Part shown: positions 13,528 to 29,933 of the stretch, one piece after another | Layout of the letters: the number at the start of each line of letters is the position of its first letter | Numbering within the stretch: the first letter of the stretch is position 1 | Virus record (IMG/VR): IMGVR_UViG_3300023174_002534 | Coordinates: 1 to 30,060 of that record | Strand: one strand, 5' to 3' | DNA from: a virus | DNA: 30,060 bases | Made by a program: the position numbers and the translations under genes | Notes under the pieces: generated by a model | Database searches by the model: none | Told to the model about the DNA's origin: nothing | Seen by the model: the letters and a program-made list of their open reading frames with translations, nothing else

Positions 13528-13555
13528 TTGACTTTCCCTGCGGATGTGTTATGAT
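13528..13555 (+). promoter_or_regulatory. Sigma70-like promoter for helicase gene 41, abutting the start codon
   Basis: TTGACT (13528-13533), 16-base spacer, extended -10 TGT-TATGAT (hexamer 13550-13555). The ATG of gene 41 begins at 13563, seven bases after the -10, so the expected transcription start falls at or one base before the start codon. No Shine-Dalgarno is present. Confidence 0.72.
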
Positions 13556-13562
13556 CTCCTGA

Positions 13563-14993
13563 ATGCCAAATGACCGTATTGAAACCTTAGTCCTCCGTTC
13601 GCTTATTCACGATGAAGAATATGCGCGGAGGACTTTGCCATTTCTCAAGCCCGAATACTTCATGGATCGCACAGAGCGCGTGGTCTATGAGACCATCGCA
13701 GAGTTTGTATCCAAGTACAACAAGTCTCCTACGGTTGAGATCATTACGATTGATCTCTCTAACCGCGATGGATTGTCAGAGGAGGAGTTCAAGCAGGGCA
13801 AGGAATTGCTTGGTGAACTTGCTGACTTTGACAAGCCTGATACTAAGTGGCTGATCAATGCCACCGAGAAGTTCTGCCGCGACAAGGCTGTCTACAACGC
13901 CATCATGGAATCTATTCAGATCATTGACGGTAAGGGCAGCAAGACACAGAACGCGATTCCCGAGATACTGTCAACTGCGCTTGCGGTTTCCTTTGATGCT
14001 CATGTAGGTCACGACTTCATTGAGGACTACAATGAGCGGTTTGACTTCTATCACCAGATTGAACGCAAGATGCCGTTTGACTTAGAGTACATGAACAAGA
14101 TCACGCAGGGTGGTGTACCAAGCAAGACGCTGAATGTTATCCTCGCGGGTACGGGCGTGGGCAAGAGTCTGTTCATGTGCCACCATGCCGCAAACTGTTT
14201 GATCACAGGGAACAATGTTCTCTACATCACTTGTGAGATGGCAGAGGAGCGTATCGCAGAGCGTATTGATGCTAACCTTATGGACATCACGATGGATGAC
14301 TTGAAGAAGTTGCCCAAGGACATCTACACTCGCAAGATGCAGCGTATTCTGTCTTCTACCTCATCCAAGTTGATCATCAAGGAGTATCCGACCGCTACTG
14401 CAAACGCGATGCACTTTGAAGCACTCTTGGATGAATTGCGACTGAAGAAGAACTTCAAGCCTGATGTGGTGTTCATTGACTACCTGAACATCTGTGCCTC
14501 TAGTCGCTTCAAGGCAAACTCCAATGTCAACTCATACACCTATGTCAAGGCAATTGCAGAAGAACTTCGTGGCATGGCGGTGAAGTATGATGTCCCAATC
14601 TTCACGGCTACACAGACAAACCGTGAAGGCTTTGCCAATAGCGATGTGGAATTGACAAATACAAGTGAGTCATTCGGTCTTCCTGCCACCGCAGACTTCA
14701 TGGTTGCCCTGATCTCCACCGAGGAATTGGAGGAACTTGGACAACTCATGGTCAAGCAATTGAAGAATCGCTACGGCGACCCATCTGCATATCGCCGTTT
14801 CGTGATCGGCGTTGACCGCAGCAAGATGAAGTTGTTTGACTTGGATGCCGCTGCACAGAAGGGCATTTCTAAAATGGGTGAGAAGGAAGATGACGATGAG
14901 GTTGAAATGCCTGAAGGCGGCGGTGGGTTTAAGACTTTCCGTCAGCGTAGGGATGAAAAATTTTCCAAGAGAAACTTTGACAACTGGTCTTGA
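13563..14993 (+). CDS. 41: Replicative DNA helicase, T4 gp41 (DnaB) type
   Basis: Hexameric 5'-3' helicase that unwinds DNA ahead of the polymerase and partners with primase gp61. The 476-residue product has the N-terminal DnaB-like helical domain and the RecA-fold core: Walker A AGTGVGKS at 195-202, ITCEMAEERIAERIDANLMD, Walker B VVFIDYLNIC, ATQTNREGF and SFGLPATADFMVA. It agrees with T4 gp41 along its length (from memory), including the VGHD-x5-YxxR linker segment. The ATG at 13563 is the only suitable start; there is no Shine-Dalgarno and the promoter abuts the ATG, so a leaderless mRNA is predicted. The G+C-richer composition returns here after the sugar cassette. Confidence 0.95.
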   Translation: MPNDRIETLVLRSLIHDEEYARRTLPFLKPEYFMDRTERVVYETIAEFVSKYNKSPTVEIITIDLSNRDGLSEEEFKQGKELLGELADFDKPDTKWLINATEKFCRDKAVYNAIMESIQIIDGKGSKTQNAIPEILSTALAVSFDAHVGHDFIEDYNERFDFYHQIERKMPFDLEYMNKITQGGVPSKTLNVILAGTGVGKSLFMCHHAANCLITGNNVLYITCEMAEERIAERIDANLMDITMDDLKKLPKDIYTRKMQRILSSTSSKLIIKEYPTATANAMHFEALLDELRLKKNFKPDVVFIDYLNICASSRFKANSNVNSYTYVKAIAEELRGMAVKYDVPIFTATQTNREGFANSDVELTNTSESFGLPATADFMVALISTEELEELGQLMVKQLKNRYGDPSAYRRFVIGVDRSKMKLFDLDAAAQKGISKMGEKEDDDEVEMPEGGGGFKTFRQRRDEKFSKRNFDNWS

Positions 14994-15018
14994 CAGCAGC
15001 CAATATACAAGGTAAGAT
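14990..15018 (+). promoter_or_regulatory. Sigma70-like promoter abutting the gene at 15027
   Basis: Consensus -35 TTGACA (14990-14995), 17-base spacer, -10 TAAGAT (15013-15018). The -35 overlaps the stop of gene 41. The ATG at 15027 is eight bases after the -10, so the purine start would be the A of ATG. AAGG (15009-15012) is about 14 bases from the ATG, too far for a normal Shine-Dalgarno site. Confidence 0.65.
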
Positions 15019-15026
15019 TACGCACT

Positions 15027-15269
15027 ATGACATATCGCTTGCACATTGACATTCCGATTGATGCGTGTTCTGTTGCAGAGGCGCAGGAGAAGGTACGGCT
15101 GATTCTGTCCGAACTCTCAATCCGAGAGGGAATGCCAATGTCTCGCACTCTTGCAGAAGAAATCAACTTTAGACTGGGACATGATGATGATCGACAGCGT
15201 TCAAATTATATGGAGATCGATTCTAGGGGGCATTGCTCAAGCAAGAAGTCAACGATCAGGGTCTCCTGA
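15027..15269 (+). CDS. Small hypothetical protein
   Basis: An 80-residue protein I do not recognise. The N-terminal half (YRLHIDIPIDACSVAEAQEKVRLILSEL) predicts a beta strand then a helix, as in small phage regulators or beta-alpha proteins. The C-terminus is hydrophilic with His, Asp and Lys. It has its own sigma70-like promoter immediately upstream and no Shine-Dalgarno, so it is one of the predicted leaderless genes. The 3' third overlaps the reading frame at 15181 in another frame. Either both are expressed, or a +1 shift joins them. Confidence 0.55.
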   Translation: MTYRLHIDIPIDACSVAEAQEKVRLILSELSIREGMPMSRTLAEEINFRLGHDDDRQRSNYMEIDSRGHCSSKKSTIRVS

Positions 15270-15525
15270 TTCTCGTTGTCCGACTTGCAAAGAGTGTGGC
15301 TGCGCTACAATCCGTTCTCGTAGAGATCATGTTTTTCAGATGGGAAGCAACGAAGAAGTAAGAACAGAACCCTTGGTCATGGCTAGAGTCGTCTACAACA
15401 TCCCTGTATTTCAATGCACCAATCAAAAGTGCGGTCTATACTACATGGATCCCGAGGGAGAGAAGCAGTTTGAAAGTTTAGAGAAGGCTTTGAAGAAGGA
15501 AATTAAGACCCGAAGACGGGTCTAA
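15181..15525 (+). CDS. Zinc-ribbon-like small protein (start uncertain)
   Basis: A 114-residue frame whose useful part starts near residue 25. It contains CPTCKECGC followed about 40 residues later by FQCTNQKCGLYYMDPE: two pairs of cysteines spaced as in a zinc ribbon. The C-terminus is Lys/Arg-rich. ATG codons at 15181, 15184 and 15187 are possible, and one at 15151; none has a good Shine-Dalgarno. It overlaps the preceding frame by 89 bases, more than other genes here, so translational coupling or frameshifting is possible. A nucleic-acid-binding role is a guess from the zinc ribbon and basic tail. Confidence 0.5.
   Translation: MMMIDSVQIIWRSILGGIAQARSQRSGSPDSRCPTCKECGCATIRSRRDHVFQMGSNEEVRTEPLVMARVVYNIPVFQCTNQKCGLYYMDPEGEKQFESLEKALKKEIKTRRRV
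15506..15523 (+). other. Perfect 7-bp hairpin before the tRNA
   Basis: AGACCCG (15506-15512) and CGGGTCT (15517-15523) form a perfect stem with loop AAGA at the end of the zinc-ribbon gene. No T-run follows, so it is not a standard terminator. It lies 7 bases before the tRNA and might help tRNA processing or protect the upstream mRNA end (inference). Confidence 0.4.
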
Positions 15526-15530
15526 CAAAT

Positions 15531-15604
15531 GGGACGAGGGGGTCTTTGGTTGGCCCAGGAGAGTTTATACCTCTCTGGAACAGGTTCGATTCCTGATCGT
15601 CCTA
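15531..15604 (+). tRNA. Probable tRNA-Ile, anticodon TAT (reads ATA)
   Basis: A 74-base cloverleaf can be drawn. Acceptor: GGGACGA (15531-15537) with TCGTCCT (15597-15603), one G-T pair, discriminator A at 15604. D-arm: GGGTC/GGCCC with loop TTTGGTT. Anticodon stem GAGAG/CTCTC with 7-base loop TTTATAC, giving anticodon TAT. T-arm: CAGG/CCTG around TTCGATT. CCA is not encoded. Odd points: G rather than T at position 8, a 5-bp D-stem with a short loop, and an A-A mismatch at 49-65. An Ile tRNA reading ATA would suit the ATA-using sugar cassette. Could also be a degenerate tRNA or tRNA-like element. Confidence 0.62.
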
Positions 15605-15644
15605 CTCACAACTACATACAACAACCCTTTTAGGAGAGATTACT

Positions 15645-16037
15645 ATGCTGATTCCAAGTCCAAATTTCATTATCGTTGAGACAACCCAAGAAGTTTTTAA
15701 TTCTCAGGTTCAGGGCAATCCTCAAGATTCCGGTTTGCTGTCCCGCAGCCTTCCTGTTTTGGTCGGCAAGGTCTATGCCATCGGTGACACGCAGTTCTCT
15801 GATAGTCCCGTCATGGGCGATGGTCGCTCATTCTCATGGGCGCGTAAGCCCGAAGAATTCCCTCTGGCTAATGGAGAGGAAGTGGTCTGTCAGTATTGGG
15901 AACACGCCACACAGCACGAAGATAAGTATCTGTTCATTGTAGCAAAGGGCAGCATCCTTGGTGTGTACCGCAATCGTGAGACAGTTGAGGCTACCCTTTT
16001 TGATAATGCACAGCCTGAACTTGAACTGGCAAACTAA
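15645..16037 (+). CDS. GroES/gp31-like co-chaperonin (probable)
   Basis: A 130-residue protein resembling the GroES fold: MLIPSPNFIIVE as first strand, a flexible stretch QVQGNPQDSGLLSRS where GroES and T4 gp31 have the GroEL-binding mobile loop, then VGKVYAIGD (compare GEVLAVG in GroES), LANGEEVVCQYW, and IVAKGSILGVY at the end (compare ESDILAIV). T4 gp31 replaces GroES for folding of the major capsid protein; the same job is inferred here. AGGAGA at 15632-15637 lies 7 bases before the ATG. The gene follows the tRNA. Its TAA stop is embedded in a late-promoter box. Confidence 0.58.
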   Translation: MLIPSPNFIIVETTQEVFNSQVQGNPQDSGLLSRSLPVLVGKVYAIGDTQFSDSPVMGDGRSFSWARKPEEFPLANGEEVVCQYWEHATQHEDKYLFIVAKGSILGVYRNRETVEATLFDNAQPELELAN

Positions 16038-16040
16038 ATA
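16033..16040 (+). promoter_or_regulatory. T4-late-like promoter box ACTAAATA
   Basis: ACTAAATA resembles the T4 late box TATAAATA and includes the TAA stop of the GroES-like gene. By T4 geometry transcription would begin at about 16046 and run into a structured, gene-free segment before the next late box at 16141. Confidence 0.5.
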
Positions 16041-16041
16041 C

Positions 16042-16120
16042 AACAACCCCAGTCAAACTTACCCCGCAGGAGATAGCATCTCCCGCCCGACAACCTCCGA
16101 TCAAAAGGGGGTTGTTTCTT
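16042..16120 (+). terminator. Structured region with probable intrinsic terminator
   Basis: Three hairpins can form: AACAACCCC (16042-16050) with GGGGTTGTT (16108-16116), nine perfect pairs; GGAGAT-AGC-ATCTCC (16069-16083); and CAACCTCC (16091-16098) with GGGGGTTG (16107-16114). The first and last are mutually exclusive. The right arm is followed by TTTCTTATTATT. This reads as an intrinsic terminator between the GroES-like gene and the gene at 16154, or as the end of a short non-coding RNA started at 16046. Confidence 0.6.
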
Positions 16121-16140
16121 ATTATTGAGGATGCCCGTAG

Positions 16141-16148
16141 GCTAAATA
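16141..16148 (+). promoter_or_regulatory. T4-late-like promoter box GCTAAATA for the gene at 16154
   Basis: The last A of the box is 16148. With T4 spacing (box ending at -6) the start is 16154, exactly the A of the ATG. No Shine-Dalgarno lies upstream, so this is predicted to make a leaderless late mRNA. Confidence 0.65.
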
Positions 16149-16153
16149 CGGTG

Positions 16154-17413
16154 ATGATAGCCAATTTTTCAAGTCTGATGTATGCTCCCTCCTGCCCTCT
16201 TAATGAGGCTGTGGAGACACAACATCTTGAGCATATTGAAGACTTGATGTTCAAGGATTTGGATAATGGCATCAACAGTTCCATGACTTTGATGACTAAT
16301 ATCACCAAGTCCTTGGCTAGTAAGACCCCTACCGCCAAGATGGTCATCACCACAAAATGGGATGGCGCACCCGCTATCGTTGCAGGAAAGCATCCCTCAA
16401 ACGGCAAGTTCTTTGTTGCCCTAAAGCACGCAACCACCTCCAAGAATCCAAAGATAAACTTCACGCTTAAGGACATCAAAACCAATCACGGGGATGATGC
16501 CGATCTAGTGAACAAACTCACTCTTTGCTTGGAGAACCTTCCTGCGGTGCTTCCGTCCACAGGAGTCTATCAGGGCGATCTGATGTTCATTCCAACATCC
16601 CGTAAAGAGATAGATGTTGGCGGCGTGAAGAACTATGCGTTCCGTCCTAATACTATTCTTTATGCAGTCCCCGTAGATTCACCATTAGGCAAGAAGATCG
16701 GTGCTGCCAAGTTGGGAATCGTGTTCCATACGGTGTATACAGGGAAGTCGGATACGCTGCAAGGAATGAACAAGGGAACGCTTGCCAATCTAGACGGTTT
16801 CAAGCAGACAACGAATGTATGGTTCTCTGCTGCCACCCTGCCTTCTCCACCAACAGGCAAGACATTTATCACGGCTAGTGACTCCGAGCAGATAGTAGCC
16901 CTACTCAAGATAATGAAGCCATTGGCTCCCAAGGTCAAGACATTCTTGAAGATAGTGGTCAAGGCACACAAGACTGATATCTTTGATGAACTCATGCCAT
17001 TCATCAATTCAGGTGTCAGGGCAGGCATTTCAAAATACGATTCTTCAAGATTGAAAACACACATTGCCTCCAAGTATGATTTGGCAATTTCAAAACTCAA
17101 GCAACCAAAGAACCAAGCAGCAAAGCAGAAAGCAAAGATGGACGCAATCAAGTTCATTGATGCTTACGCTGCACAATTTGATCAAATGTTCCAACTACAC
17201 TCACTCATCAGCGAGGCAAAACTAATCGTCATCAAGAGACTTTCCGAAGTCAAGACGATTGGAACTTACCTACCTACAACTAAAGGTATCAAGGCTACGA
17301 ACCCTGAAGGTTTCGTTGCTGTTTGTGGTGATACCTGTCAGATGATTAAGTTGGTAGATCGTATTGAGTTCGCACGGGCAAACTTTAACCTAGCCAAGGA
17401 TTGGAAGTTATGA
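16154..17413 (+). CDS. Nucleotidyltransferase/ligase-fold phage protein (DUF6267-like)
   Basis: A 419-residue protein of a family common in T4-like marine phages (recognised from memory as DUF6267). TKWDGAP at about residue 67 has the K68-x-D-G nucleotidyl-acceptor motif of ATP-dependent DNA/RNA ligases and capping enzymes. GVYQGDLMF, PNTILYAVP and GIVFHTVYTGK follow, then PEGFVAV (E385-G) and IKLV (K399), which match ligase motifs IV and V. The N-terminus HLEHIEDLMF is typical of the family. The ATG at 16154 is chosen over an upstream in-frame TTG at 16112 because it coincides with the predicted late transcription start. The substrate is unknown. It overlaps the giant fusion gene as ATGA, so the two probably act together. 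Confidence 0.78.
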   Translation: MIANFSSLMYAPSCPLNEAVETQHLEHIEDLMFKDLDNGINSSMTLMTNITKSLASKTPTAKMVITTKWDGAPAIVAGKHPSNGKFFVALKHATTSKNPKINFTLKDIKTNHGDDADLVNKLTLCLENLPAVLPSTGVYQGDLMFIPTSRKEIDVGGVKNYAFRPNTILYAVPVDSPLGKKIGAAKLGIVFHTVYTGKSDTLQGMNKGTLANLDGFKQTTNVWFSAATLPSPPTGKTFITASDSEQIVALLKIMKPLAPKVKTFLKIVVKAHKTDIFDELMPFINSGVRAGISKYDSSRLKTHIASKYDLAISKLKQPKNQAAKQKAKMDAIKFIDAYAAQFDQMFQLHSLISEAKLIVIKRLSEVKTIGTYLPTTKGIKATNPEGFVAVCGDTCQMIKLVDRIEFARANFNLAKDWKL

Positions 17414-20295
17414 AGACCTTTTCAGAAGCAACGAAGAACGCCAAGCCGAAAAAGAAATCGGTAGTCTTTGCATTTGGTCGCATGAACCCACCTACAACAG
17501 GTCACGGTGTTCTTGTAAAGAAGGTCATGGATGAAGCAGGGTCGCGTAGTGCAGATCACTTCATCTTTGTTTCCAAGTCCCAAGACGCAAAGAAGAACCC
17601 ACTCACACACGCGCAGAAGGTATCCTATCTACGCAAGTTGTTCCCACAGGGCAACTTCCCGCTGAACAAGGCAGCGAATCCATACGAGGCTGTTCTCTAT
17701 CTGTGCGAACTAGGTTATACCGATATCACCATGATTGCAGGAAGCGATCAGGTTGACAACTTCAAGGGAATCGCTGCCTACAAGGGCAAGATTGCGGAGA
17801 AGGATCCAAAGAAGCGCAAGTACTCGTTTGATTCTTTCCGTGTTGTACAGGCAGGAGAAGAGCGTGTAGAGAAAGTCAGCCTAGCCGATATTGACAGTAT
17901 GCTCAAGAAGGGCAAGGCAGTTGATCCAATGTATATGTCTGCATCGCTCATGCGGGCTGCTGCATTTGCCAAGCGGTTTGACATTTTCTCTATCGGCATT
18001 CCTGGTAACAAGACTCTTGCCAAACAACTTTATAACGATGTTCGTAAGGGCATGGCACTCAACGAAGAGTATATTCCCGAGGCTGCCGATGATCCAAAGG
18101 ACAAGGTTACGATCCTTGCACTCACATCGTCCGACAAGGACTTGAGCGATACAATTGAGAAGATGCAGGAAATCTGCAAGCGGCGTAAGATTGAGTTCTA
18201 CGCTCTCAAGACATCCAAGGCGCAAGTTGATCTTTCAAATGTCGCTTCCAAGAAGATCGTCATCAAGAACTATGATGGCGAAGGCAAGGATGTAACAATT
18301 GTACCAGGCAACACCGTGGCAATCGTTCGTGGCGGCGTGATGAACACCGATATCGGCGTTGCTATTATGACCATCTTGCAGAACAATGGCGTGTTTATGA
18401 TCAACGAGCGTGGTGGCATGGAACTATGTGCCAACAAGTTGGAGACTGCAATTGCTCTCAAGAAGCACGGTCTCCCGCACCCACGCACGGCATTTGTTGC
18501 CAATGAAGAGAACATTGAAACCGCAGTCAAGGAAATCGGCGGCAAGTTCCCTGTTATCGTCAAGACTCTTACAGGCGCAGAGGGTATCGGCGTTTCCAAG
18601 ATTGAAAGCATGGAAAGCCTAAAGTCGGTGCTACAGACTCTATGGAAATACGGTGCCGAAGTCATTATGCAGGAATTCCTGCCTGACTTCAAGAATGATG
18701 TTCGTAGCATCTGCCTTAACGGCAAGATCTTCGCCTGTGCCAAGCGTGACAAGGCTCCCAAGGATTTCCGTACCAATATTGCCCGTGGTTCCAAGGGTGG
18801 CTCATTCCAACTTTCGGAAGAGGAAATCAAGTTGGTAGAAGAGGCTGCACGGGTCAGCAAATGCTATTATGTTGGAATTGACCATGTAATCAATAATGGT
18901 AAACCCTACATTATTGAAATGAATGCAAGTCCAGGTAGCGGCAACATCTACTATCGCTACTATGAAGAGGGTGAGGGTAAGGACAATGTAAAGGGCGAGG
19001 AATTGGTTGAAGATTTTGTCAACTATATTCTAGATAAGACCCATTGGAAGTTGTTCTCTAATCTTGCCGTGCGAGAGAAAATCAAGATTGAAGGCGTGGA
19101 ATACACCGCCAAAGTTGATACCGGCAACAGCGGCTACAACATGATTCATGCCGATGGCATCAAGGACAATGGCGATCACACCGTCACATTCACTCTGCCC
19201 AACGGCAAGAAAGTCACAAAGAAGATTGTTAGTCGCTTGGTGGTAAAGAGCGGAATTGGTCAGAAGAAGCGAATGGTCGTTTTGATGGATGTGGAATTCC
19301 ACGGTAAGAAGTATCCTAACATCAAGTTCAGTATCGGTGATCGGGCGCACATGAGCAGCAAGGTTCTTCTTGGTTTGCAATTTCTGAGCAAGACTGGCAT
19401 GATTGTAGATCCCGCGCAAGCCATCTATCCACAGAATCAAACAGATGGTGCAAAGAATGTTGGGGGCGATGAGGAAGAAGAAAAGGAAATCAAGGAAGCG
19501 TTCAAGACCGAAAAGAAGTCAAAGCACACTCAACTCTTTGTCAAGAAATTTGGTAGCAAGAAGGAACAGGTTGCCGAAATGGTCAATACTCTCATGGGTA
19601 TTGAGTCTTCGGATATGAACATGGCAGAGAAGATTGAGAAGGCTCGTATGTTGCAAGCCAAGGCTCCATTGACGGAACTCAAGGAAACCTGCAACATCTA
19701 TATTGAAGCCATGAAGGCAGAAATGTATGAGCCATATTCAAATATTCAAACTACCCTTGACGAGGATTTTGAATGGATGTTGATCAATAATGTTCCTGCC
19801 GAATCTGCCACTCGCAGATTGCAGGCACAGATCAAAGAGTATCAGTTACAAGGAACCGATGAGATTGTCCATGCTTATTCCAAGATGACACCTGGTCAAA
19901 AACACTTCACCGCCGAAGACAAGGACAAGGATCAGCAGGAAAAGGACGAACTTTATAAAAAGTGGAAGAGCCTTGTCAATATGGGACCAAAAGAATTAGA
20001 AAGTTTCATTGATTCCGATACAGGCAAGGATGCAGGACTATCCCGTAAGGAAGCGTCCAAGGCAGGAGCCAAGGGCAAGCCAATCAAGTCGGGACGCGAT
20101 TCAGCCCGTGCTATTGTCCGTATGAAGGGTATGAGTAGAGATGAATGGACTGCTAATGATTGGGCATGGGCAAGACGGCAAGTAAATTTCATAACTAGAA
20201 TGAAGGGTGCCGCAGGAAAGATGCGCGAATCGGACGGAACTCCTACACGCAAGTTGATGGCACTCAAGATTTGGGGACACAATCCAGAGAAGTAA
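17410..20295 (+). CDS. Nucleotidyltransferase / RimK-type ATP-grasp / retropepsin-like fusion protein
   Basis: A 961-residue multidomain protein. Residues about 10-225: HxGH-type nucleotidyltransferase (FGRMNPPTTGH, H32; MSASLMR at 176-182 for ISSTxxR), as in NMN adenylyl- or cytidylyltransferases. About 231-540: RimK-like ATP-grasp with CANKLETAIALKKHGLPHP, FPVIVKTLTGAEGIGVS, IMQEFLP and EMNASPG (503-509) for metal/ATP binding; such enzymes ligate amino acids, often glutamate, to a carboxylate. About 545-672: RimK-associated retropepsin-like protease, VDTGNSG with D570-T-G. The rest (to 961) is Lys/Glu-rich and ends in PTRKLMALKIWGHNPEK, a tail pattern also seen in other phage proteins. ATG 17410 overlaps the upstream stop (ATGA). 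Domain calls are by motif; the combined function is unknown. Confidence 0.8.
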   Translation: MKTFSEATKNAKPKKKSVVFAFGRMNPPTTGHGVLVKKVMDEAGSRSADHFIFVSKSQDAKKNPLTHAQKVSYLRKLFPQGNFPLNKAANPYEAVLYLCELGYTDITMIAGSDQVDNFKGIAAYKGKIAEKDPKKRKYSFDSFRVVQAGEERVEKVSLADIDSMLKKGKAVDPMYMSASLMRAAAFAKRFDIFSIGIPGNKTLAKQLYNDVRKGMALNEEYIPEAADDPKDKVTILALTSSDKDLSDTIEKMQEICKRRKIEFYALKTSKAQVDLSNVASKKIVIKNYDGEGKDVTIVPGNTVAIVRGGVMNTDIGVAIMTILQNNGVFMINERGGMELCANKLETAIALKKHGLPHPRTAFVANEENIETAVKEIGGKFPVIVKTLTGAEGIGVSKIESMESLKSVLQTLWKYGAEVIMQEFLPDFKNDVRSICLNGKIFACAKRDKAPKDFRTNIARGSKGGSFQLSEEEIKLVEEAARVSKCYYVGIDHVINNGKPYIIEMNASPGSGNIYYRYYEEGEGKDNVKGEELVEDFVNYILDKTHWKLFSNLAVREKIKIEGVEYTAKVDTGNSGYNMIHADGIKDNGDHTVTFTLPNGKKVTKKIVSRLVVKSGIGQKKRMVVLMDVEFHGKKYPNIKFSIGDRAHMSSKVLLGLQFLSKTGMIVDPAQAIYPQNQTDGAKNVGGDEEEEKEIKEAFKTEKKSKHTQLFVKKFGSKKEQVAEMVNTLMGIESSDMNMAEKIEKARMLQAKAPLTELKETCNIYIEAMKAEMYEPYSNIQTTLDEDFEWMLINNVPAESATRRLQAQIKEYQLQGTDEIVHAYSKMTPGQKHFTAEDKDKDQQEKDELYKKWKSLVNMGPKELESFIDSDTGKDAGLSRKEASKAGAKGKPIKSGRDSARAIVRMKGMSRDEWTANDWAWARRQVNFITRMKGAAGKMRESDGTPTRKLMALKIWGHNPEK

Positions 20296-20296
20296 T

Positions 20297-21082
20297 ATGA
20301 CAATACCATTCAAAACATTCTCAAAGCATCTCACGGAGAAGGCAGCAGGCAATGTCTCTGTATTTGACGGATCTGTAGCAGATAAAGGCAGAATCTTTTC
20401 CGCAGGAGATCTTGCTTCTTTTGGTGCAGCGGGTTGGGGTGGCTCTAATAGTAACCCCAAAGATAACCCAATGTACAAGTATTTTGCTACCAATATTTCA
20501 AATGCAAATACGCAGACAAAATCAACCCTTAATCTATTAAGAGCAACTCCTGGTTTGATGTCGGATGTATTGGGGGATGGTGATGGGGATGAAGAAGACG
20601 ATACCAATACCAATGGAGGTCAAGGTGTAATTTTTAAGGCGATACAAACAGGAACAGATGATCAGCAAAGTTCAGGTTCGGGTGGTTATTCGGGTATGAC
20701 CACAAGCAGTATTCGTGGAAGTTCAGGATTTGGAGATGGCGAGGATGATACCGATGACGAAGATGATGAGGAAGATGATGAGGATGACGAAGATGATGAG
20801 GAAGATGATGAGGAAGATGATGAGGAATTAAATCAAATTCCAGGTATGAATACAGATGCCTTGTACTTTGGCGATCCTGGAGATGACGAAACCAAGAAAA
20901 ACATTTATCGTGCAGCATTAGCACACCAAAAAGATGCACAGGCAAGATGGAAGCAACTAAAGACTTGGGTTACTTCTTTTGGAGTAGATCCTAAAATTCA
21001 ATCAAAAATTACATCATCTACAACCGTTCTTGGAGTGAATACCCCATCAATTATGAAGAATTTAAAAAAGGGTAAGGAATGA
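20297..21082 (+). CDS. Hypothetical protein with Asp/Glu repeat
   Basis: A 261-residue protein of unknown function. The N-terminus MTIPFKTFSKHLTEKA is like that of many T4-type phage structural or accessory proteins. The middle is disordered, Gly/Ser/Asp-rich, and contains a stretch of nearly pure Asp and Glu (encoded at about 20741-20826). The C-terminal 80 residues (ALYFGDPGD...ARWKQLKTWVTSFGVDP) look helical and folded. It starts one base after the fusion gene's stop and has no separate promoter. An acidic linker like this could bind a basic partner or mimic DNA (guess). Confidence 0.6.
   Translation: MTIPFKTFSKHLTEKAAGNVSVFDGSVADKGRIFSAGDLASFGAAGWGGSNSNPKDNPMYKYFATNISNANTQTKSTLNLLRATPGLMSDVLGDGDGDEEDDTNTNGGQGVIFKAIQTGTDDQQSSGSGGYSGMTTSSIRGSSGFGDGEDDTDDEDDEEDDEDDEDDEEDDEEDDEELNQIPGMNTDALYFGDPGDDETKKNIYRAALAHQKDAQARWKQLKTWVTSFGVDPKIQSKITSSTTVLGVNTPSIMKNLKKGKE
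20741..20826 (+). repeat. GATGAGGAAGATGAT-type short tandem repeat
   Basis: Imperfect tandem copies of GATGAT/GAG/GAAGAT units coding only Asp and Glu. Copy number is likely to vary by slippage, so the length of the acidic tract may differ among relatives. Confidence 0.8.
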
Positions 21083-21122
21083 AGCCTTTCAATAAATCTT
21101 ATAAAGGCTAGTATCAAAATTC

Positions 21123-21130
21123 GCTAAATA
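21123..21130 (+). promoter_or_regulatory. T4-late-like promoter box GCTAAATA for the gene at 21170
   Basis: Predicted start at 21136 gives a 34-base leader with GAGG (21161-21164) five bases before the ATG. It follows an 88-base gap whose left part holds a weak 7-bp hairpin (AGCCTTT 21083-21089 with AAAGGCT 21103-21109). Confidence 0.6.
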
Positions 21131-21169: not shown

Positions 21170-21466
21170 ATGAACAACAACAAGATTTCGGCACAACTAC
21201 AAGATGACATCATGCGAGTTCTCCGTGGCGAGACCACACAGAAAATTGAATTACCCACCGCGATTATGGAAGCCGCCAAGCAGGCTGCTATTGAACTCAA
21301 CCACGCTTTTCTGACAGAAGGCTATGGTTCCGTTGAGCGTAAGCGCGAGATTCTACGCCGCAACCTCAATGAGGGTCTAAAGAAGTGCGGTTGCAGCCCA
21401 ACCGCTGACATGATTGCCCGTTTTGAAGAAGAGGCTATGAAGCCTGTAGAAGTCAAGAAGAACTAA
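21170..21466 (+). CDS. Small hypothetical protein
   Basis: A 98-residue, mostly helical, charged protein that I do not recognise. Visible landmarks are QDDIMRVLRGE at the N-terminus, EAAKQAAIELNHAFLTEGYGS in the middle, and KKCGCSPTADMIARFEEEA near the end with a CGC pair. No membrane segment. A late box, leader and Shine-Dalgarno all point to late expression. The TAA stop is itself part of the late box for the next gene (ACTAAATA), so the pair is packed with no spare bases. A structural or head-assembly role is only suggested by context. Confidence 0.6.
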   Translation: MNNNKISAQLQDDIMRVLRGETTQKIELPTAIMEAAKQAAIELNHAFLTEGYGSVERKREILRRNLNEGLKKCGCSPTADMIARFEEEAMKPVEVKKN

Positions 21467-21469
21467 ATA
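21462..21469 (+). promoter_or_regulatory. T4-late-like promoter box ACTAAATA for the gene at 21498
   Basis: Overlaps the TAA stop of the preceding gene. Predicted start 21475; leader of 23 bases contains AGGAG (21484-21488), nine bases before the ATG at 21498. This is the clearest leadered late promoter in the window. Confidence 0.68.
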
Positions 21470-21497
21470 AAAGAGATACCCAAAGGAGACCTCACAA

Positions 21498-22535
21498 ATG
21501 GGAGTTTGGAACAACAACGACCGCGAAGAATCAAAGCCACAGTTCTTGAACAAGACCGAGAAGCGTCATGTCGTCCGCACAATTCGCGGATGGGAAATGC
21601 CGCTAATGGGCAGTCCGTTTGCATACGGTGTCACTAATGGAAACTCTTTTGGTGGTGGAGCAGGAATAACTTTTGCATCAGTCTTTACTGAAGTCATTGT
21701 CACATTACCAAATGATCCCTCTACCGCAGGTGTGGTTTCTTCAAATTATGCAAACGGATTTACGGGAGATCTGAATGGTTTGACCTTTGGTTCGGATCAG
21801 CAAGATCAGCCATACTTCAGCGCACCATTCTTAGGGGATGGTGGCATTACGGGAGTTCCTGGTGCTGCTCAAATTGCTGGATCAACTGGCGTTTCGCACG
21901 GATTCTTGACTTATGTTCCTGGATTTGATACAAATGGTTACGGATTACCTTGGGGTTCGCCTGGTGCAACTCCTAGTGGACTTAACGCTACCGGTCCAGG
22001 TGCAGGAAGAGGCTATCAATATGGCGTAAATGCTTATGGAGTTTCCACACTTGGTGGACTTACCGGCGTAACAGCATACATCAAGATTCAGGGACATGAT
22101 ACTAATCTATCGCAGAGTCTTACAATTGGTCTATCGGGAACATATTCAGGCATGGCTCTATACACAGGAGTTGGACTTACTGTAGGCAGTACTGTATCGG
22201 CAGGACATATTCCACTTGATGTCTATAAAACTTTCTTTGGTCCAACCGGCGACAAGAACGGTCGCGTATCATATCGTCAAGATAATATTGCAGTTCTTGT
22301 TGTAGGCGGATTAACTGCAACTGGTACTAAGACAGTCAGTCTTACAATCAGAGATAACTCTGGATCTACAGCACCTTACGGAAGCCTCACGGGCGCAACC
22401 GCAGGAACGACTTTTGCTCTTGTATTTGATCGTCCAGCAGGATTGACCACAGGTGGTGGTACTGCGGGTGATGGTATTACTGCACCAACATTTGGTCAAT
22501 ACTTCTATACAAATACTGGCACTATCCGCATCTAA
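21498..22535 (+). CDS. Gly/Thr-rich virion structural protein (probable)
   Basis: A 345-residue protein rich in Gly, Thr, Ser and Ala with almost no Cys, the usual look of beta-rich phage head or fibre proteins. The N-terminus is more charged (WNNNDREE, FLNKTEKRHVVRTIRGWE) and resembles N-termini of structural proteins in T4-like marine phages (from memory). Blocks such as GVTNGNSFGGG, GYGLPWGSPG and TATGTKTVSLTIRD suggest beta strands with loops, possibly a fibre or decoration protein. It has its own late promoter and a strong Shine-Dalgarno, pointing to high late expression. Specific identity not established. Confidence 0.6.
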   Translation: MGVWNNNDREESKPQFLNKTEKRHVVRTIRGWEMPLMGSPFAYGVTNGNSFGGGAGITFASVFTEVIVTLPNDPSTAGVVSSNYANGFTGDLNGLTFGSDQQDQPYFSAPFLGDGGITGVPGAAQIAGSTGVSHGFLTYVPGFDTNGYGLPWGSPGATPSGLNATGPGAGRGYQYGVNAYGVSTLGGLTGVTAYIKIQGHDTNLSQSLTIGLSGTYSGMALYTGVGLTVGSTVSAGHIPLDVYKTFFGPTGDKNGRVSYRQDNIAVLVVGGLTATGTKTVSLTIRDNSGSTAPYGSLTGATAGTTFALVFDRPAGLTTGGGTAGDGITAPTFGQYFYTNTGTIRI

Positions 22536-22545
22536 AGGAGTCATC

Positions 22546-23169
22546 ATGCGATTCAAAGATTTGAGAAAGAAACTTGCGGAAGGAATGTTGCCAACAGATG
22601 TTTATGGTGGCTATGTCGGCGGCACAAAGATTGGTCCTATGGACTCATCGGACAATGCTGTTGATACTCCCGATGCAAGCGTTCACCAACTTTCGCAAAG
22701 AGAACTTCAACGCTTGAACACTTTTGTAGGTGCAGTAGAAGCCAAGTGCTATATTGATCCAAATACTGCGATCAATCAGATGAAGCAGAAGTTGTTCTCG
22801 CAAGGAATCTCTTTTGATTTCAATCAGGAAGCCATGCTTGAAGATGGAGTCCATGCATTCCCACTCAAGCAGTTCGGTGGGCGAGAAGGTATGGATGGGA
22901 CTTCGTACACTCCCATCAAGGATGATGGCATCAGCCACCGCCTTGGTCATGGTCTAAACTTGATGATTTCTGTTCAGAAGGAATCAAGCGGAATGACCCG
23001 TATGAGTGCCAAGGTTGTTGCAAGCAATGGCAACCCAAATCCAGGAGTTGCTTCGCCACCAAACCCACGGGGCAAGGCAGGAATGCAAGGAATGAATTCG
23101 GGTGAGGCAGGGGAATACAATAAGAACCCCTTCACAAACCCGACCTTCTCCAAGCCAGGTTTGGGCTGA
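22546..23169 (+). CDS. Hypothetical phage protein
   Basis: A 207-residue protein of unknown function. The N-terminus is MRFKDLRKKLAEGMLP, then YGGYVGGTKIGPMDSS, a helical region (HQLSQRELQRLNTFVGAVEAK), and a disordered Gly/Asn/Pro-rich tail that includes GMQGMNSGEAGEY and ends in SKPGLG. ATG 22546 is chosen because AAAGGAG lies about 7 bases upstream; an earlier in-frame ATG at 22453 would lie inside the preceding gene. Ten bases separate it from that gene, and a strong terminator follows, so it closes the transcript begun at 21475. Confidence 0.6.
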   Translation: MRFKDLRKKLAEGMLPTDVYGGYVGGTKIGPMDSSDNAVDTPDASVHQLSQRELQRLNTFVGAVEAKCYIDPNTAINQMKQKLFSQGISFDFNQEAMLEDGVHAFPLKQFGGREGMDGTSYTPIKDDGISHRLGHGLNLMISVQKESSGMTRMSAKVVASNGNPNPGVASPPNPRGKAGMQGMNSGEAGEYNKNPFTNPTFSKPGLG

Positions 23170-23180
23170 ATAAAAACAAA

Positions 23181-23212
23181 AAGGGCATCAGGTCAAACTG
23201 ATGCCCTTATTC
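23181..23212 (+). terminator. Strong intrinsic terminator
   Basis: Perfect 11-bp stem AAGGGCATCAG (23181-23191) / CTGATGCCCTT (23198-23208) with loop GTCAAA and trailing TATTC. The left arm is preceded by an A-rich run (TAAAAACAAA), so it could work in both directions. It ends the structural-type operon before 23245. Confidence 0.85.
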
Positions 23213-23244
23213 ATTGGATAGATAATGAGTAACTATGACACATC

Positions 23245-23634
23245 ATGCAATTCAAAAAACTGGATAACGACAACTACACCCTCTATGCTGCAAAGCACTA
23301 CGACAATCCAACTTGCCGTAGTGTGGATGAGTTCAATGAGGACTTAACTCGCTTGATCTATCTCAAGCGGTTGTTTCGCCGTTACAGGCGCACGGGTGAA
23401 TTGCGTGAGCGTCTGATACTCAATCACCTCATTACCTTCTACAATGTGTTTGGCACCGAAGCCGCAACACGCCTCTTATTCTTCAAAATTGATACTGATC
23501 TCTACGATATCCTTAAGACTTTTCTGGTCTACTTGGAGTATTTGTCAAATTCCACAAAGAACCTAGACGGCATAGATATTGTAGGAATTCAATTAGACAA
23601 ATCCATTGTGGATCAATTGAGGAAATTAGGGTGA
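23245..23634 (+). CDS. Conserved phage protein of unknown function (DUF7207-like)
   Basis: A 129-residue helical protein. The pattern LYAAKHYDNPTC...DEFNEDLTRLIYLKRLFRRY, then LRERLILNHLITFYNVFG and ATRLLFFKI...LKTFLVYLEYL, is one I recall from a small family conserved in T4-like marine phages (DUF7207); role unknown. It follows the terminator and so needs its own promoter. A possible -10 TATGAC (23234-23239) lies five bases before the ATG with no good -35 and no Shine-Dalgarno, a weaker version of the leaderless arrangement elsewhere. Coupled to the next gene by GTGA. Confidence 0.72.
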   Translation: MQFKKLDNDNYTLYAAKHYDNPTCRSVDEFNEDLTRLIYLKRLFRRYRRTGELRERLILNHLITFYNVFGTEAATRLLFFKIDTDLYDILKTFLVYLEYLSNSTKNLDGIDIVGIQLDKSIVDQLRKLG

Positions 23635-24374
23635 AGAACAAAGCATACGACAAACTCATTCAATACCGCTTGTTTGAAATAGTTACCACCCCTTGGAAGG
23701 ATCAGAAAGCCTACAAGATGGGGATCATTGACGAGAATGGTTCTATCATCATGTCTCGTCATCTGCTGACGGTAGAAGAGAAAGCAGCATATCCTAGCAA
23801 GTTCTACGCTTATGCGTGGGAACTCAAGCAGATCCTTGAGAGTCGCCTCACGCCCACCCGCGTAGGAAGAGCATTGGCTAAACTCTTTGATATCCGCGAA
23901 AAGGTTGCGGGTGAGGATATGTTCTCTCCTCGTAAGATTGATGAAGCAGGAACGGAACTATTCAAGCACTATGGTGTAGACATTCAACCTATGCTTGAAG
24001 AGAACTACGATGCTCTTCCAATGGAAGGCGAATATGAACTCCGTGGTGAGAAGATCATGTTGGAACAAGCCTTGCTTCCAATTGGAGACATCATGGGATT
24101 CCCTGTCTACTCAATGCCAAACGGCACGACTTTCACCATTCTTGAAGCCAAGAAGTTGAAGACCGAGGATGGCATGGGCGCAGGCGCGGTAGGCGGGGGC
24201 GCACCCGCGAACAATGTCGGTAGCGGTAATATTGCAGGAGTGTCGCCTGGTCAAGAGCCGCCAGGTCCAAAGGGCGGATTCAAAGCATTGGCAAAGCAGA
24301 AGAAAAAAAAGATCACTCAACTTCGCCGCGATGCACAGACTCTCAATGTAGTGGCGAGAGAAAAGAAGGAGTAA
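23631..24374 (+). CDS. Hypothetical phage protein
   Basis: A 247-residue protein I do not recognise. It starts at GTG 23631, which overlaps the upstream stop as GTGA, with GAGG (23620-23623) and AGG as weak ribosome sites. The N-terminal half is mixed helix and strand (YRLFEIVTTPWKDQKAYKMGIID, YAYAWELKQILESRL). The middle includes DIMGFPVYSMPNGTTFTI. The C-terminal 70 residues are disordered, Gly/Ala/Pro-rich, then very basic (KQKKKKITQLRRD), which could bind nucleic acid. Two bases separate its stop from the next ATG. Late structural or assembly role guessed from context. Confidence 0.6.
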   Translation: MKNKAYDKLIQYRLFEIVTTPWKDQKAYKMGIIDENGSIIMSRHLLTVEEKAAYPSKFYAYAWELKQILESRLTPTRVGRALAKLFDIREKVAGEDMFSPRKIDEAGTELFKHYGVDIQPMLEENYDALPMEGEYELRGEKIMLEQALLPIGDIMGFPVYSMPNGTTFTILEAKKLKTEDGMGAGAVGGGAPANNVGSGNIAGVSPGQEPPGPKGGFKALAKQKKKKITQLRRDAQTLNVVAREKKE

Positions 24375-24376
24375 CC

Positions 24377-25282
24377 ATGAAAATTTCAAGATGTTTGGGA
24401 ATGGCTCTAGGCGTTGCGGCAGTCTTGCTCATGGGAGGATGTCCTCCAAAGGCTCAACAGGTTACTGAAGATGCCCCGACCGAACTCATGTCGGTCTCAT
24501 CCCATGTGAAGGGCGCAAACAATGAAATCTTGAAAGATGCAACTGCAATAACCAAGGAAGCGGCATCGGCAAAGACAAATGTTGATAAGTTGACATCCGA
24601 AGTAAATCGTCCTATTACAGGAAACATTCGTCAATCGCTTTCAAGTATAGAAAGTCATGCCGATCAAATCATAGATGGTTCAAAGCGAATAGCAGAAGAG
24701 ACTGCACAGTTGGATCAAACTCTCTCAGATATCTCCAACATGGAGAAGAAGATTGCAGAGTTGCAAGGATCACTAGATGAAGCAAAGAAGGCGGCACTAG
24801 AACGCCTCTATACTTACATTACGATGTTCTGGATAATTGGATTCATCGTAATTGTAGGAGGTGCCATTGTGTCGTTCTTGGTGAACAAAACGATGGGATT
24901 CGCTTTAATAATGGTCGGTGCCTTGATGATTGGATTTGCATCCGCTAGTCATTACTACTTACAGCAAATTGCCTTTGTTGGTGGAATCCTCATAATAGGA
25001 ACAATGCTGTTTGGCGTAGGTCTACTTGTATGGTCTATGGTAACTGCCAAGAAGACATCTACTGCTGTCAAGGAAATTGTAGAGATGATGGAGATTCTGA
25101 AAGAGTCCATGCTTGATGGCGAGAAGGAGCGTATCTTTGGTGCTGACGGTCTTGCCTCAAAGGTGCAGTCCGACATCACCAAGGAAATAATTGCAAAGAT
25201 CAAGGAGCGTAATGGCTTCAAGCGTCTTGCAGAGTTGCGTAATGCTGCCACACAACAGCAACCAACGCCTCCACCAACTTGA
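24377..25282 (+). CDS. Lipoprotein with coiled coil and three transmembrane segments
   Basis: A 301-residue envelope protein. Residues 1-22 form a lipoprotein signal peptide ending LLMGGC with C22 as the lipidated cysteine. Residues about 40-145 are heptad-rich and probably a long coiled coil (LKDATAITKEAASAKTNVDKLTSEV and similar). Three hydrophobic segments follow at about 147-169, 172-191 and 197-222, then a charged helical tail. A lipid anchor followed by a coiled coil and membrane segments resembles the plan of unimolecular spanins, which bridge outer and inner membranes during lysis, although those have a single C-terminal membrane segment. AAGGAG lies 6 bases before the ATG. Alternatives: superinfection-exclusion or membrane-remodelling protein. 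No endolysin or holin is seen nearby. Confidence 0.6.
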   Translation: MKISRCLGMALGVAAVLLMGGCPPKAQQVTEDAPTELMSVSSHVKGANNEILKDATAITKEAASAKTNVDKLTSEVNRPITGNIRQSLSSIESHADQIIDGSKRIAEETAQLDQTLSDISNMEKKIAELQGSLDEAKKAALERLYTYITMFWIIGFIVIVGGAIVSFLVNKTMGFALIMVGALMIGFASASHYYLQQIAFVGGILIIGTMLFGVGLLVWSMVTAKKTSTAVKEIVEMMEILKESMLDGEKERIFGADGLASKVQSDITKEIIAKIKERNGFKRLAELRNAATQQQPTPPPT

Positions 25283-25365
25283 TCGCTATGTATACAAGAT
25301 GTTTGCGAAATTAGCCTCATAAATCAGCAAATCCAACAATTAATTTTCTCACGCATCAAACATAT

Positions 25366-25410
25366 GAGAAGTCAAGGTTTCGTACTTAAAACCTTGACTT
25401 TTCTGCTTGA
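25366..25410 (+). terminator. Intrinsic terminator between the lipoprotein gene and gene 61
   Basis: AAGTCAAGGTTT (25369-25380) and AAACCTTGACTT (25389-25400) form a perfect 12-bp stem that can be extended by a few pairs, loop CGTACTTA, followed by TTCTGCTT. It lies in the 158-base gap 25283-25440. The rest of that gap is A+T-rich and holds only the gene 61 promoter. Confidence 0.78.
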
Positions 25411-25434
25411 CAGATATGCGATGAGCAGTATACT
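25407..25434 (+). promoter_or_regulatory. Sigma70-like promoter for primase gene 61, abutting the start codon
   Basis: Consensus -35 TTGACA (25407-25412), 16-base spacer, -10 TATACT (25429-25434). The ATG is at 25441, so the expected start (7 bases after the -10) is the A of ATG itself. No Shine-Dalgarno. The promoter starts just after the terminator above. Confidence 0.78.
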
Positions 25435-25440
25435 TACCCC

Positions 25441-26481
25441 ATGCCCAATTACATTGATACCAAGTACATCAACCTGATCTCTCCCCGTCTACAGAAGTTT
25501 GGGTGGAAGAAGCAGGATCTTGCTGCGTGTCGGTGTCCCATCTGTGGGGATAGTCAGAAGTCCAAGTCAAAGACACGATTCTATTTCTATGAGAAGAAGG
25601 GCGGCTTCTTTGTTCGTTGTCACAACTGCGACTACGGGACTACACTTGGCAAGTTCATTGAGTATTTGGATCCGTTTGTCTATAAGCAGTATATGCTTGA
25701 GAAGTATCGGGACGGGGTAGAGGGTCGCCACGAAGTTAAGGATACGGCTGAGAAGCAGTACAAGTTTGAGGCTCCCGTCTTTGAATCTAAGCGGAGGGAG
25801 TTGTTGTTGGAGTCCCTAGAGACCCTTTCGGAACTACCCGAAGATCATAAGGCTGTGGAATTCGTTCGCCGCCGTAAGATCCCTGTAGATAAGTGGGATC
25901 GCCTCTACTTCACCGAGGACTTTGGATGGTGGGCAACTCAAGTGGATCCTGAAGTAGAAGCCCCGCCTGATGAGCGATTGGTCATTCCTATCATGCGAGG
26001 CAAGCGTCTTGTTGCTGCACAGGGTAGATCCCTGACTGCTACTGCATCGGGCAAGAATATTCGTTACATTACCATCAAGCGAGACAAGGATCTCCAATCT
26101 ATTTGGTTTGGCTTGGATCATATTGACAAGAGCAAGCCTGTGATTGTGGTGGAAGGTCCATTGGATTCGCTCTTTCTTCCCAACTGCGTAGCCATGCTAG
26201 GAGCAAAGCACATCTCCGAACTGCCTTCTGAACTGAAGGACTGCAAGTTGATCTTTGCCTTGGACAACGAGCCACGCAACAAGGAAGTAGTCGGCATTTA
26301 TCAAAAATTGGTAGAGGATGGTTACCGTGTCTGCTTTTGGCCCGATAGCATTCGGGTCAAGGACATCAACGACATGGTATTGGTCGGTCACGATCCTATA
26401 AAGATTGAAAAGATTATTCACGAAAATTCATCAGAAGGTCTCATGGCACGGCTAAAATTGTCTACTTGGCGACAGATCTGA
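25441..26481 (+). CDS. 61: DNA primase, T4 gp61 type
   Basis: Makes RNA primers for lagging-strand synthesis and works with helicase gp41. The 346-residue protein has an N-terminal zinc finger, C32-P-I-C35-GDS and C60-H-N-C63, then a TOPRIM core with VVVEGPLDSLF (E238) and FALDNEPRN, and ends GLMARLKLSTW, all agreeing with T4 gp61 from memory. Length is as expected (T4: about 342). The start ATG abuts a consensus promoter and has no Shine-Dalgarno, so a leaderless mRNA is predicted as for gene 41. In T4 genes 41 and 61 are near neighbours; here about 10.4 kb of structural-type genes separates them. Confidence 0.95.
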   Translation: MPNYIDTKYINLISPRLQKFGWKKQDLAACRCPICGDSQKSKSKTRFYFYEKKGGFFVRCHNCDYGTTLGKFIEYLDPFVYKQYMLEKYRDGVEGRHEVKDTAEKQYKFEAPVFESKRRELLLESLETLSELPEDHKAVEFVRRRKIPVDKWDRLYFTEDFGWWATQVDPEVEAPPDERLVIPIMRGKRLVAAQGRSLTATASGKNIRYITIKRDKDLQSIWFGLDHIDKSKPVIVVEGPLDSLFLPNCVAMLGAKHISELPSELKDCKLIFALDNEPRNKEVVGIYQKLVEDGYRVCFWPDSIRVKDINDMVLVGHDPIKIEKIIHENSSEGLMARLKLSTWRQI

Positions 26482-26489
26482 CCTAAATA
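26482..26489 (+). promoter_or_regulatory. T4-late-like promoter box CCTAAATA abutting the gene at 26495
   Basis: By T4 geometry the start is 26495, exactly the A of the ATG. The box begins at the base after the stop of gene 61 and there is no Shine-Dalgarno. Another predicted leaderless late gene. Confidence 0.65.
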
Positions 26490-26494
26490 TCAGC

Positions 26495-27214
26495 ATGAAC
26501 GAAGAACCAACAGACAATGAGATTTCACAGCCATCCTTGGATGGTCTATTTGATCGCCTCTCTAGCAAAGACATGATCGGTGGTCGGCATCAGATCAAGG
26601 CTATGCTGTATACCAAGTTGAAGGACAGGCTTGATTCTCTGAACGCATCATCTGCTCCTCTTCCATATGAAGAAGAACAGACAATTGAAGAGAGTGGTGT
26701 TGGCGCAGCCATGACAACCGACAAGCAGGTCACAGGTCGCCGTGGATTTGATCGTCACTACCGCGAGTTCCCAAAGGAGTTTGTGTGGGCGGCTGAAAAA
26801 GACGGCAAGGTAGTTGATACTGCCGTGATCAATGTGCAGGATCTTCAGCAAGCCCATGCCGCAATTCGTGAGATTGCATCTAATCTAGCAGACAAGGGTG
26901 CAGATACTGTCAAGATCATGGGTCGTGGAGACAAGTTGCTTTCCACCATGAAGATTGATGGTCAAGGCAAGGTTACCAATTATGAATCCGTTGAATCGGG
27001 TGGATGGAATCTTGGCGCACTTGATGACATCAAGGGAACAGGAAAGGCAAAGAAGCCTTTCAACAAGACTAACATCCGTGAGAAGATTGTCAAGCAGGGC
27101 AGCAAGTTTGTCATCCTATCCAAGGATGGCGACAAGAAGTTGGGCGAGTATGACAACGAAGATGCAGCAAAGAAGCGTCTTCGTCAGATTGAGTTTTTCA
27201 AGCGTAAGCACTAA
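26495..27214 (+). CDS. Conserved phage hypothetical protein
   Basis: A 239-residue protein of unknown function. The N-terminal 75 residues are acidic and helical (LFDRLSSKDMIGGRHQIKAML). A middle domain follows with GRRGFDRHYREFPKEFVW and SNLADKGADTVKIMGRGDKLLS, perhaps an alpha-beta fold. The C-terminus FVILSKDGDKKLGEYDNEDAAKKRLRQIEFFKRK is a short strand-strand-helix module that I recall at the ends of many phage and some bacterial proteins. It is predicted to be expressed late from a leaderless message, followed by thyX after 14 bases. Not recognised as any T4 gene. Confidence 0.65.
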   Translation: MNEEPTDNEISQPSLDGLFDRLSSKDMIGGRHQIKAMLYTKLKDRLDSLNASSAPLPYEEEQTIEESGVGAAMTTDKQVTGRRGFDRHYREFPKEFVWAAEKDGKVVDTAVINVQDLQQAHAAIREIASNLADKGADTVKIMGRGDKLLSTMKIDGQGKVTNYESVESGGWNLGALDDIKGTGKAKKPFNKTNIREKIVKQGSKFVILSKDGDKKLGEYDNEDAAKKRLRQIEFFKRKH

Positions 27215-27228
27215 CAAGGAGTCATAGT

Positions 27229-27942
27229 ATGGGGGTTTCCAATGTTTTGGTATTGGACAATGGTTTTGTACAGTATGTTGATCACATGGGTGATGATCTC
27301 ACCGTTGTAAATGCTGCCCGTGTTTCTTTTCATAAGGAAAGTGATTGGGACGGTGAGCAGCATTGGACTGGCGCGATCAAAGACAAGAAACTCAATGAGA
27401 AAGATCAGAAACTCATTGGCTATCTTGCCAAGCATAAGCATTGGACTCCATTCGCTCACCCACAGATCACCCTGCGAATCAAGGCTCCCATCTTTGTCCG
27501 CACTCAACTTTTTAAACATAAAGTTGGAATGACAGAGAACGAAGTAAGTCGCCGCTATGTGAGTGATCCGCCAAGCGTGTATTTTCCACGATGGCGTGGC
27601 AAGCCAACAAACGGTGCCAAGCAGGGGTCTGAAGACTTTATGCCTATTGATGACGATTACAACACCGTGAACCGCCACTACGAACTCACGGTTCGGGAGG
27701 CTTTGCTTACCTATGATGAACTGCTGAAGCGCGGGGTGGCTCCTGAACAAGCACGGTCGGTGCTGCCTCAAGGCACATACACCGAGTGGTGGTGGACGGG
27801 TTCCCTTTCAGCCTTTGCACGGGTTTATACGCAGCGATCAGATCCTCATGCCCAATGGGAATGTCAGGAATATGCCAAGGCAATTTCAACAATCATACAA
27901 CCTTTGTTCCCTCATTCGTGGAAAGCGTTAACAGGGACATAA
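27229..27942 (+). CDS. thyX: Flavin-dependent thymidylate synthase ThyX
   Basis: Makes dTMP from dUMP with FAD and methylene-tetrahydrofolate, supplying phage DNA synthesis. The 237-residue protein has NAARVSF, HKHWTPFAHPQITLRIKAPIF, and KHKVGMTENEVSRRYV where classical ThyX has the RHR-x7-S motif. Here it reads K96-H-K with one extra residue before the serine, a variant I recall in phage ThyX proteins. PEQARSVLPQGTYTEWWWTGSLSAFARV and AQWECQEYA complete the family pattern (dUMP and FAD binding). AAGGAG lies about 7 bases before the ATG. Same transcript as the gene upstream; not a T4 feature, since T4 uses a ThyA-type enzyme. Confidence 0.93.
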   Translation: MGVSNVLVLDNGFVQYVDHMGDDLTVVNAARVSFHKESDWDGEQHWTGAIKDKKLNEKDQKLIGYLAKHKHWTPFAHPQITLRIKAPIFVRTQLFKHKVGMTENEVSRRYVSDPPSVYFPRWRGKPTNGAKQGSEDFMPIDDDYNTVNRHYELTVREALLTYDELLKRGVAPEQARSVLPQGTYTEWWWTGSLSAFARVYTQRSDPHAQWECQEYAKAISTIIQPLFPHSWKALTGT

Positions 27943-27948
27943 GCGGGG

Positions 27949-27956
27949 TCTAAATA
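27949..27956 (+). promoter_or_regulatory. T4-late-like promoter box TCTAAATA abutting the fibre gene
   Basis: The predicted start is 27962 or 27963, against the ATG at 27963. The only purine run upstream, GCGGGG (27944-27948), is 14 bases from the ATG and upstream of the box, so it would not be in the mRNA. Leaderless late message predicted. Confidence 0.65.
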
Positions 27957-27962
27957 TCCTGC

Positions 27963-29933
<1,971 letters not shown>

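Follow-up and report, generated by a model that had tools for sequence, protein, structure and literature searches.

Promoters placed five to eight nucleotides before start codons predict leaderless genes in a T4-like environmental phage

Results

Six promoters adjacent to start codons

The window analysed here, a 30,060-base virus record from IMG/VR, is a fragment of a T4-like phage carrying UvsX-like (1795-2844), gp41-like, gp61-like, ThyX-like, DUF6267 and collagen-fibre genes. By gp41, it is closely related to further environmental contigs (85-99% amino-acid identity), the largest of which (L019, hereafter G001) comprises 177,364 bases; the nearest cultured phages (~56-61%) are cyanophages, methylophages and one pelagiphage. 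A search of contigs for host markers found neither a WhiB nor a ribosomal protein S21 gene; no gp41 relative was recovered from GTDB genome contigs by the search used.

Six genes of the window, all on the forward strand, begin directly downstream of a promoter-like sequence, at exactly the positions given by the original prediction. Three of these promoters are of the sigma70 type. The gp41-like replicative helicase (13563..14993; PHROG 19, E=3e-128) follows a -35 box TTGACT (13528..13533) and, after 16 nt, a -10 box TATGAT (13550..13555; TATAAT or TATACT in relatives) that ends 7 nt before the ATG at 13563 (promoter score 10/12). For orf15027, a conserved hypothetical protein of 80 aa (15027..15269), the boxes are TTGACA (14990..14995) and TAAGAT (15013..15018), 17 nt apart and 8 nt from the ATG (score 10/12); for the gp61-like primase (25441..26481; PHROG 47, E=1.4e-74) they are TTGACA (25407..25412) and TATACT (25429..25434), 16 nt apart and 6 nt from the ATG at 25441 (score 11/12). 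The remaining three genes are preceded by a late-type TAAATA box: at 16143..16148, 5 nt before the ATG (16154) of a DUF6267 protein (16154..17413; PF19782, E=2.6e-91); at 26484..26489, 5 nt before the ATG (26495) of the hypothetical protein orf26495 (26495..27214), which is conserved in L218-L220 and G001; and at 27951..27956, 6 nt before the ATG (27963) of a collagen-like tail fibre (27963..29933; PF01391 and PHROG tail fibre families). Two promoter classes thus share one range of spacing (5-8 nt), as had been proposed.

PMC1524935 places the T4 late box TATAAATA at -13 to -6 from the transcript start, so that a late box ending 5 nt before an ATG would put the A of the start codon at +1; the -10 box of a sigma70 promoter, which occupies -12 to -7, would do the same when it ends 6 nt before the ATG. 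This agrees with the earlier count by standard distances. A Shine-Dalgarno (SD) sequence at usable distance was sought before all six genes and none was found. Longer leaders with SD-like sequences precede uvsX (ATG 1795) and the genes at 21170, 21498 and 29968, so that the distinction drawn by the original prediction is correct for the genes checked; the ATG at 21498, for example, is preceded by TAAATA at a gap of 28 nt and by AAGGAG (21464..21500, forward strand), and the gene at 29968 has the same arrangement with a gap of 23 nt (29939..29970, forward strand). On these grounds all six genes are predicted to be leaderless, orf15027 perhaps with a leader of 1-2 nt.

In a mechanical scan of the region the gp61, gp41 and orf15027 promoters fell within the best five of 27 sigma70 matches; the only other scores of 10 among the 27 were at 17051 (forward strand) and 19979 (reverse strand). 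As a bare hexamer, TAAATA is no commoner in the window than expected (10 copies compared to 12.3). Its position is non-random: of the five copies close to a called gene, three stop 5-6 nt short of the ATG.

Spacing compared to chance

Genes were called with a simple custom caller in the window, in five relatives and in control phages (T4, S-PM2 and DSL-LC02 among them), and for each promoter-like site we measured the distance (d) to the gene ATG that follows in frame; dinucleotide shuffles of the upstream sequences served as the chance control. In the window the 5-8 nt class holds two sigma70 sites compared to 0.06 in shuffles (orf15027, dropped by the caller, is missing from this count) and three late boxes compared to 0.09. 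The larger genomes gave the same result: for G012 (119 kb) ten sigma70 sites vs. 0.16 and nine late boxes vs. 0.49, and for G001 five vs. 0.13 and ten vs. 0.21. The spacing therefore occurs far above chance rates, so that the refuting condition attached to the original prediction, when tried, turned out in its favour. Expressed as a share of all sites near genes, the 5-8 nt class accounts in G012 for 10 of 13 strong sigma70 promoters (p=8e-11) and for 9 of 38 TAAATA boxes (p=2e-4), and in G001 for 10 of 46 TAAATA boxes (p=3e-4); taken alone, G003 gave no significant class.

The bin of 5-8 nt is the highest in the window's clade, whereas T4, S-PM2 and DSL-LC02 have 0-1 promoters of each class in it and most of their promoters further upstream. 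In the shuffle test T4 itself yielded no case of either class, consistent with the earlier remark that no such rule is known from T4. Within the sigma70 class d=6 and d=7 dominate; four G001 genes have d=9-11 and these, together with the d=8 genes, would keep a leader of ~2-5 nt. A count that used neither the -35 nor the late motif gave a matching picture: upstream of SD-less clade genes, -10-like hexamers peak at d=6 (7) and d=7 (12), compared to ~0.6 per position at d=15-39. This peak is absent from T4 and the cyanophages and was seen only in the window's clade.

Spacing, Shine-Dalgarno sequences and start codons

Short spacing is not the general rule of these genomes: among TAAATA-linked starts in the clade, 27 have the box at 5-8 nt and 62 at 13-45 nt. 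The two sets differ sharply in their SD sequences, which are present in 2 of the 27 short-spaced starts and in 53 of the 62 long-spaced starts (Fisher p=1.6e-12). For sigma70 sites the corresponding fractions are 0/23 and 7/7 (Fisher p=4.9e-7). Because the pooled counts include both G010 and G011, which are near duplicates, the p-values derived from them are somewhat optimistic; G001 alone and G012 alone each show the pattern plainly. The short class is also restricted to ATG, being found at 4.1% and 3.5% of in-frame ATGs compared to a background of 0.3-0.7% of GTG/TTG codons, which is what one would expect if initiation requires recognition of an AUG at the very 5' end by the ribosome.

A further element of the original prediction, that the arrangement links replication and virion genes, found no support. 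In relatives the short-spacing class includes UvsW, DUF6267, fibre and many hypothetical genes besides gp41 and gp61, and the SD-led class includes uvsX, RegA and many other genes: functions are mixed in both classes, and SD-led genes make up the majority of the promoter-linked late genes.

Conservation in relatives

Upstream of gp41, the footprint shared by nine aligned sequences consists of the -35 box, the -10 box and the gap of 6-7 nt: the surrounding DNA is mostly different, and TTGAC, the -10 box and a gap of 7 nt (6 nt in L005) are kept. The DNA just upstream of this promoter (window 13510-13562; L003-L019) is unrelated even among close relatives, as if a variable island ended exactly at the promoter. 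In gp41 relatives at ~60% identity no promoter was found before gp41, and this feature is thus confined to the near clade.

The frame and promoter arrangement of orf15027 are kept in relatives at 65-77% aa identity, with a similar promoter. The gp61 arrangement is kept (7 nt) down to L114 (52% aa), with a wider gap of 11 nt in G001. In relatives as distant as 62% aa, and in G001, the DUF6267 box stands at 5 nt; in L024 (49% aa) it stands at 6 nt. Among relatives holding the gene and its upstream DNA, the orf26495 box is kept in L220 and G001 and the fibre box in L219, L220 and G001. G001 also encodes a RegA-type repressor (PHROG 242) and a gp55-type late sigma factor (PHROG 234, E=3.4e-56), the latter making it reasonable to regard TAAATA as a late promoter.

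Some features of the neighbourhood are recorded here for completeness. A single tRNA-Ile gene (anticodon TAT) lies between gp41 and DUF6267 (window 15531-15605), and a tRNA-Ile(TAT) occupies the corresponding place in G001, G003, G010 and G011; G012 also has one. DUF6267 is adjoined by the gene of a large protein (window 17401-20295) with cytidyltransferase, RimK-like ATP-grasp and zinc-protease-like stretches, and a similar neighbour is present in G001. A low-complexity run of Asp/Glu codons lies within orf20297 (window 20735-20830).

Alternative explanations

The promoters could be real and yet of minor importance, the genes being translated mainly from read-through transcripts by translational coupling. 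Indeed 13-33 nt separate the preceding stop codon from the starts of orf15027, orf26495 and the fibre gene, and read-through could also carry these. A longer transcript, however, would have no SD to use, and a fixed spacing of 5-8 nt with its restriction to ATG would not be selected if the promoter-proximal transcript were unimportant. Terminators bear on the same question. An intrinsic terminator (16089..16124, forward strand) lies directly upstream of the DUF6267 promoter, with equivalent hairpins in G001, G003 and G011, and a terminator-like hairpin (25369..25408, forward strand) just upstream of the gp61 promoter is kept in G011. Across the clade such hairpins precede 10 of 47 short-class starts compared to 19 of 403 genes overall (p=2.6e-4), which argues against dependence on read-through. 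We consider this explanation unlikely.

Chance, or rather compaction, would bring AT-rich boxes close to ATGs simply because intergenic spaces are short; the six cases were, after all, picked by eye in one window in which TAAATA itself is not over-represented. But shuffles and spacing histograms speak against it, equally compact T4-like genomes show no peak, the spacing is conserved amid unrelated flanking DNA, and the gp61 promoter uses the last 34 nt of an intergenic space of 158 nt. At the level of the genome the chance reading is already refuted, and for the six genes it is highly improbable. Equally improbable is that the starts are mis-assigned and translation begins, after a normal leader, at an SD-led in-frame codon further downstream: one G012 gene (60830) does have an SD-led alternative ATG 21 nt downstream, but for the six genes no SD-led start lies in the first 60 nt downstream, and N-terminal residues, those of gp41 among them, are kept from residue 1 in close relatives.

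Occurrence in other phages

The class is not peculiar to the window. In the Pelagibacter phage HTVC008M (NC_020484) 16 genes have TAAATA 5-8 nt before the ATG, compared to 2.2 in shuffles, and 12 of the 16 are at exactly d=5. In the 26-kb stretch checked, the deposited start codons agree (6280, 7562, 11972, 16007, 18916, 18943, 19456, 24712 and 31132). Weaker signals were obtained for Mosig (late 8 vs. 1.7, sigma70 5 vs. 0.5 in shuffles) and for the contig G013 of 168,789 bases (sigma70 6 vs. 0.27). The trait is thus patchy among T4-like phages. Curli CsgF, head closure and baseplate genes are among the late short class of HTVC008M. Several of the G013 sigma70-like sites at d=6 share a TTAGATC-like stretch directly before the ATG and look like a family of near-identical leaderless promoters.

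Discussion

Sequence, spacing, statistics, conservation and the lack of both SD sequences and alternative starts lead us to conclude that the six genes are, with high probability, true leaderless genes, expressed from host-type early and gp55-type late promoters. In the mechanism we envisage, host RNA polymerase with its housekeeping sigma factor would initiate at gp41, orf15027 and gp61. Polymerase bearing a phage sigma factor of the gp55 type would act later, at DUF6267, orf26495 and the fibre gene. RNA would start on, or within ~2 bases of, the A of the start codon, so that the mRNA would begin with AUG; the ribosome, most likely in its 70S form together with initiator tRNA, would bind this 5'-terminal AUG directly and with no SD pairing. 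The same phage would also use ordinary promoters with leaders of ~10-40 nt and strong SDs, the two modes of initiation being allotted gene by gene. Across the clade, messages of the short-spacing set probably lack a ribosome-binding leader and have the ATG as their first bases.

Such an arrangement would unite promoter and start codon in a single portable cassette of ~36 nt, which may be its advantage. At the gp41 locus the upstream DNA has been exchanged repeatedly among relatives and the cassette has persisted. More speculatively, the clade and, separately, the Pelagibacter myophages may possess a standing leaderless programme that covers early promoters read with the host sigma and late promoters read with the phage sigma. 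Such a programme might make use of, or itself bring about, an altered state of the ribosomes during infection (more 70S initiation), by which these genes would be translated when SD-led messages are not; we put this forward tentatively, as the less probable extension of our reading. T4 RegB cuts GGAG (PMC3014915), but escape from RegB is not proposed as the reason for SD-less messages, many genes having kept their SD.

Leaderless genes with comparable architecture are known from bacteria: TA-led genes, as in Actinobacteria (Zheng et al. 2011, PMC3160421), and, in Deinococcus-Thermus, genes directly adjacent to a -10 box (PMC12340547). The phage genes resemble both in having a TANNNT-type -10 box ~6-7 bp before the ORF, no SD where other genes of the same genome have one, a preference for AUG and no bias to a single function. 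They differ in belonging to a lytic-type T4-like phage, in having clear -35 boxes and in including a second promoter class, of the phage-late-sigma kind. With T4 the window's clade shares sigma70 early promoters, the TAAATA late box and (in G001) a gp55 homologue; T4-like promoter-to-ATG distances are not what the clade shows, since in T4 neither promoter class has a member that ends 5-8 nt from the ATG of a gene, and distances peak further upstream. A phage mRNA that starts at AUG is that of lambda cI, transcribed from PRM; there, a single gene of a temperate phage is concerned, whereas here a set extends across early and late genes. Phage Aeh1 has the CTAAATA form of the late box, which is also the form in the phages studied here; the paper gives the promoter sequence, in passages that do not mention leaderless genes (PMC1524935). 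That phage transcripts are often leaderless is noted in passing in work on phage AR9, with no T4-like data (PMC5312081). In the Melnitz paper the word 'leaderless' occurs only in the title of a reference. Searches of open-access literature, which leaves out most subscription journals, turned up no description of systematic leaderless genes for phages of the T4 type.

T4, the textbook example of SD-led expression in phages, itself has no short-spacing genes, and our results thus suggest a second mode of translation initiation in some of its uncultured relatives. Because HTVC008M is cultured and shows the late class, the idea can be tested now. If it is true, start codons and promoters would be readable straight from the sequence, improving gene annotation, and these phages would provide a natural system in which to ask when ribosomes prefer leaderless messages.
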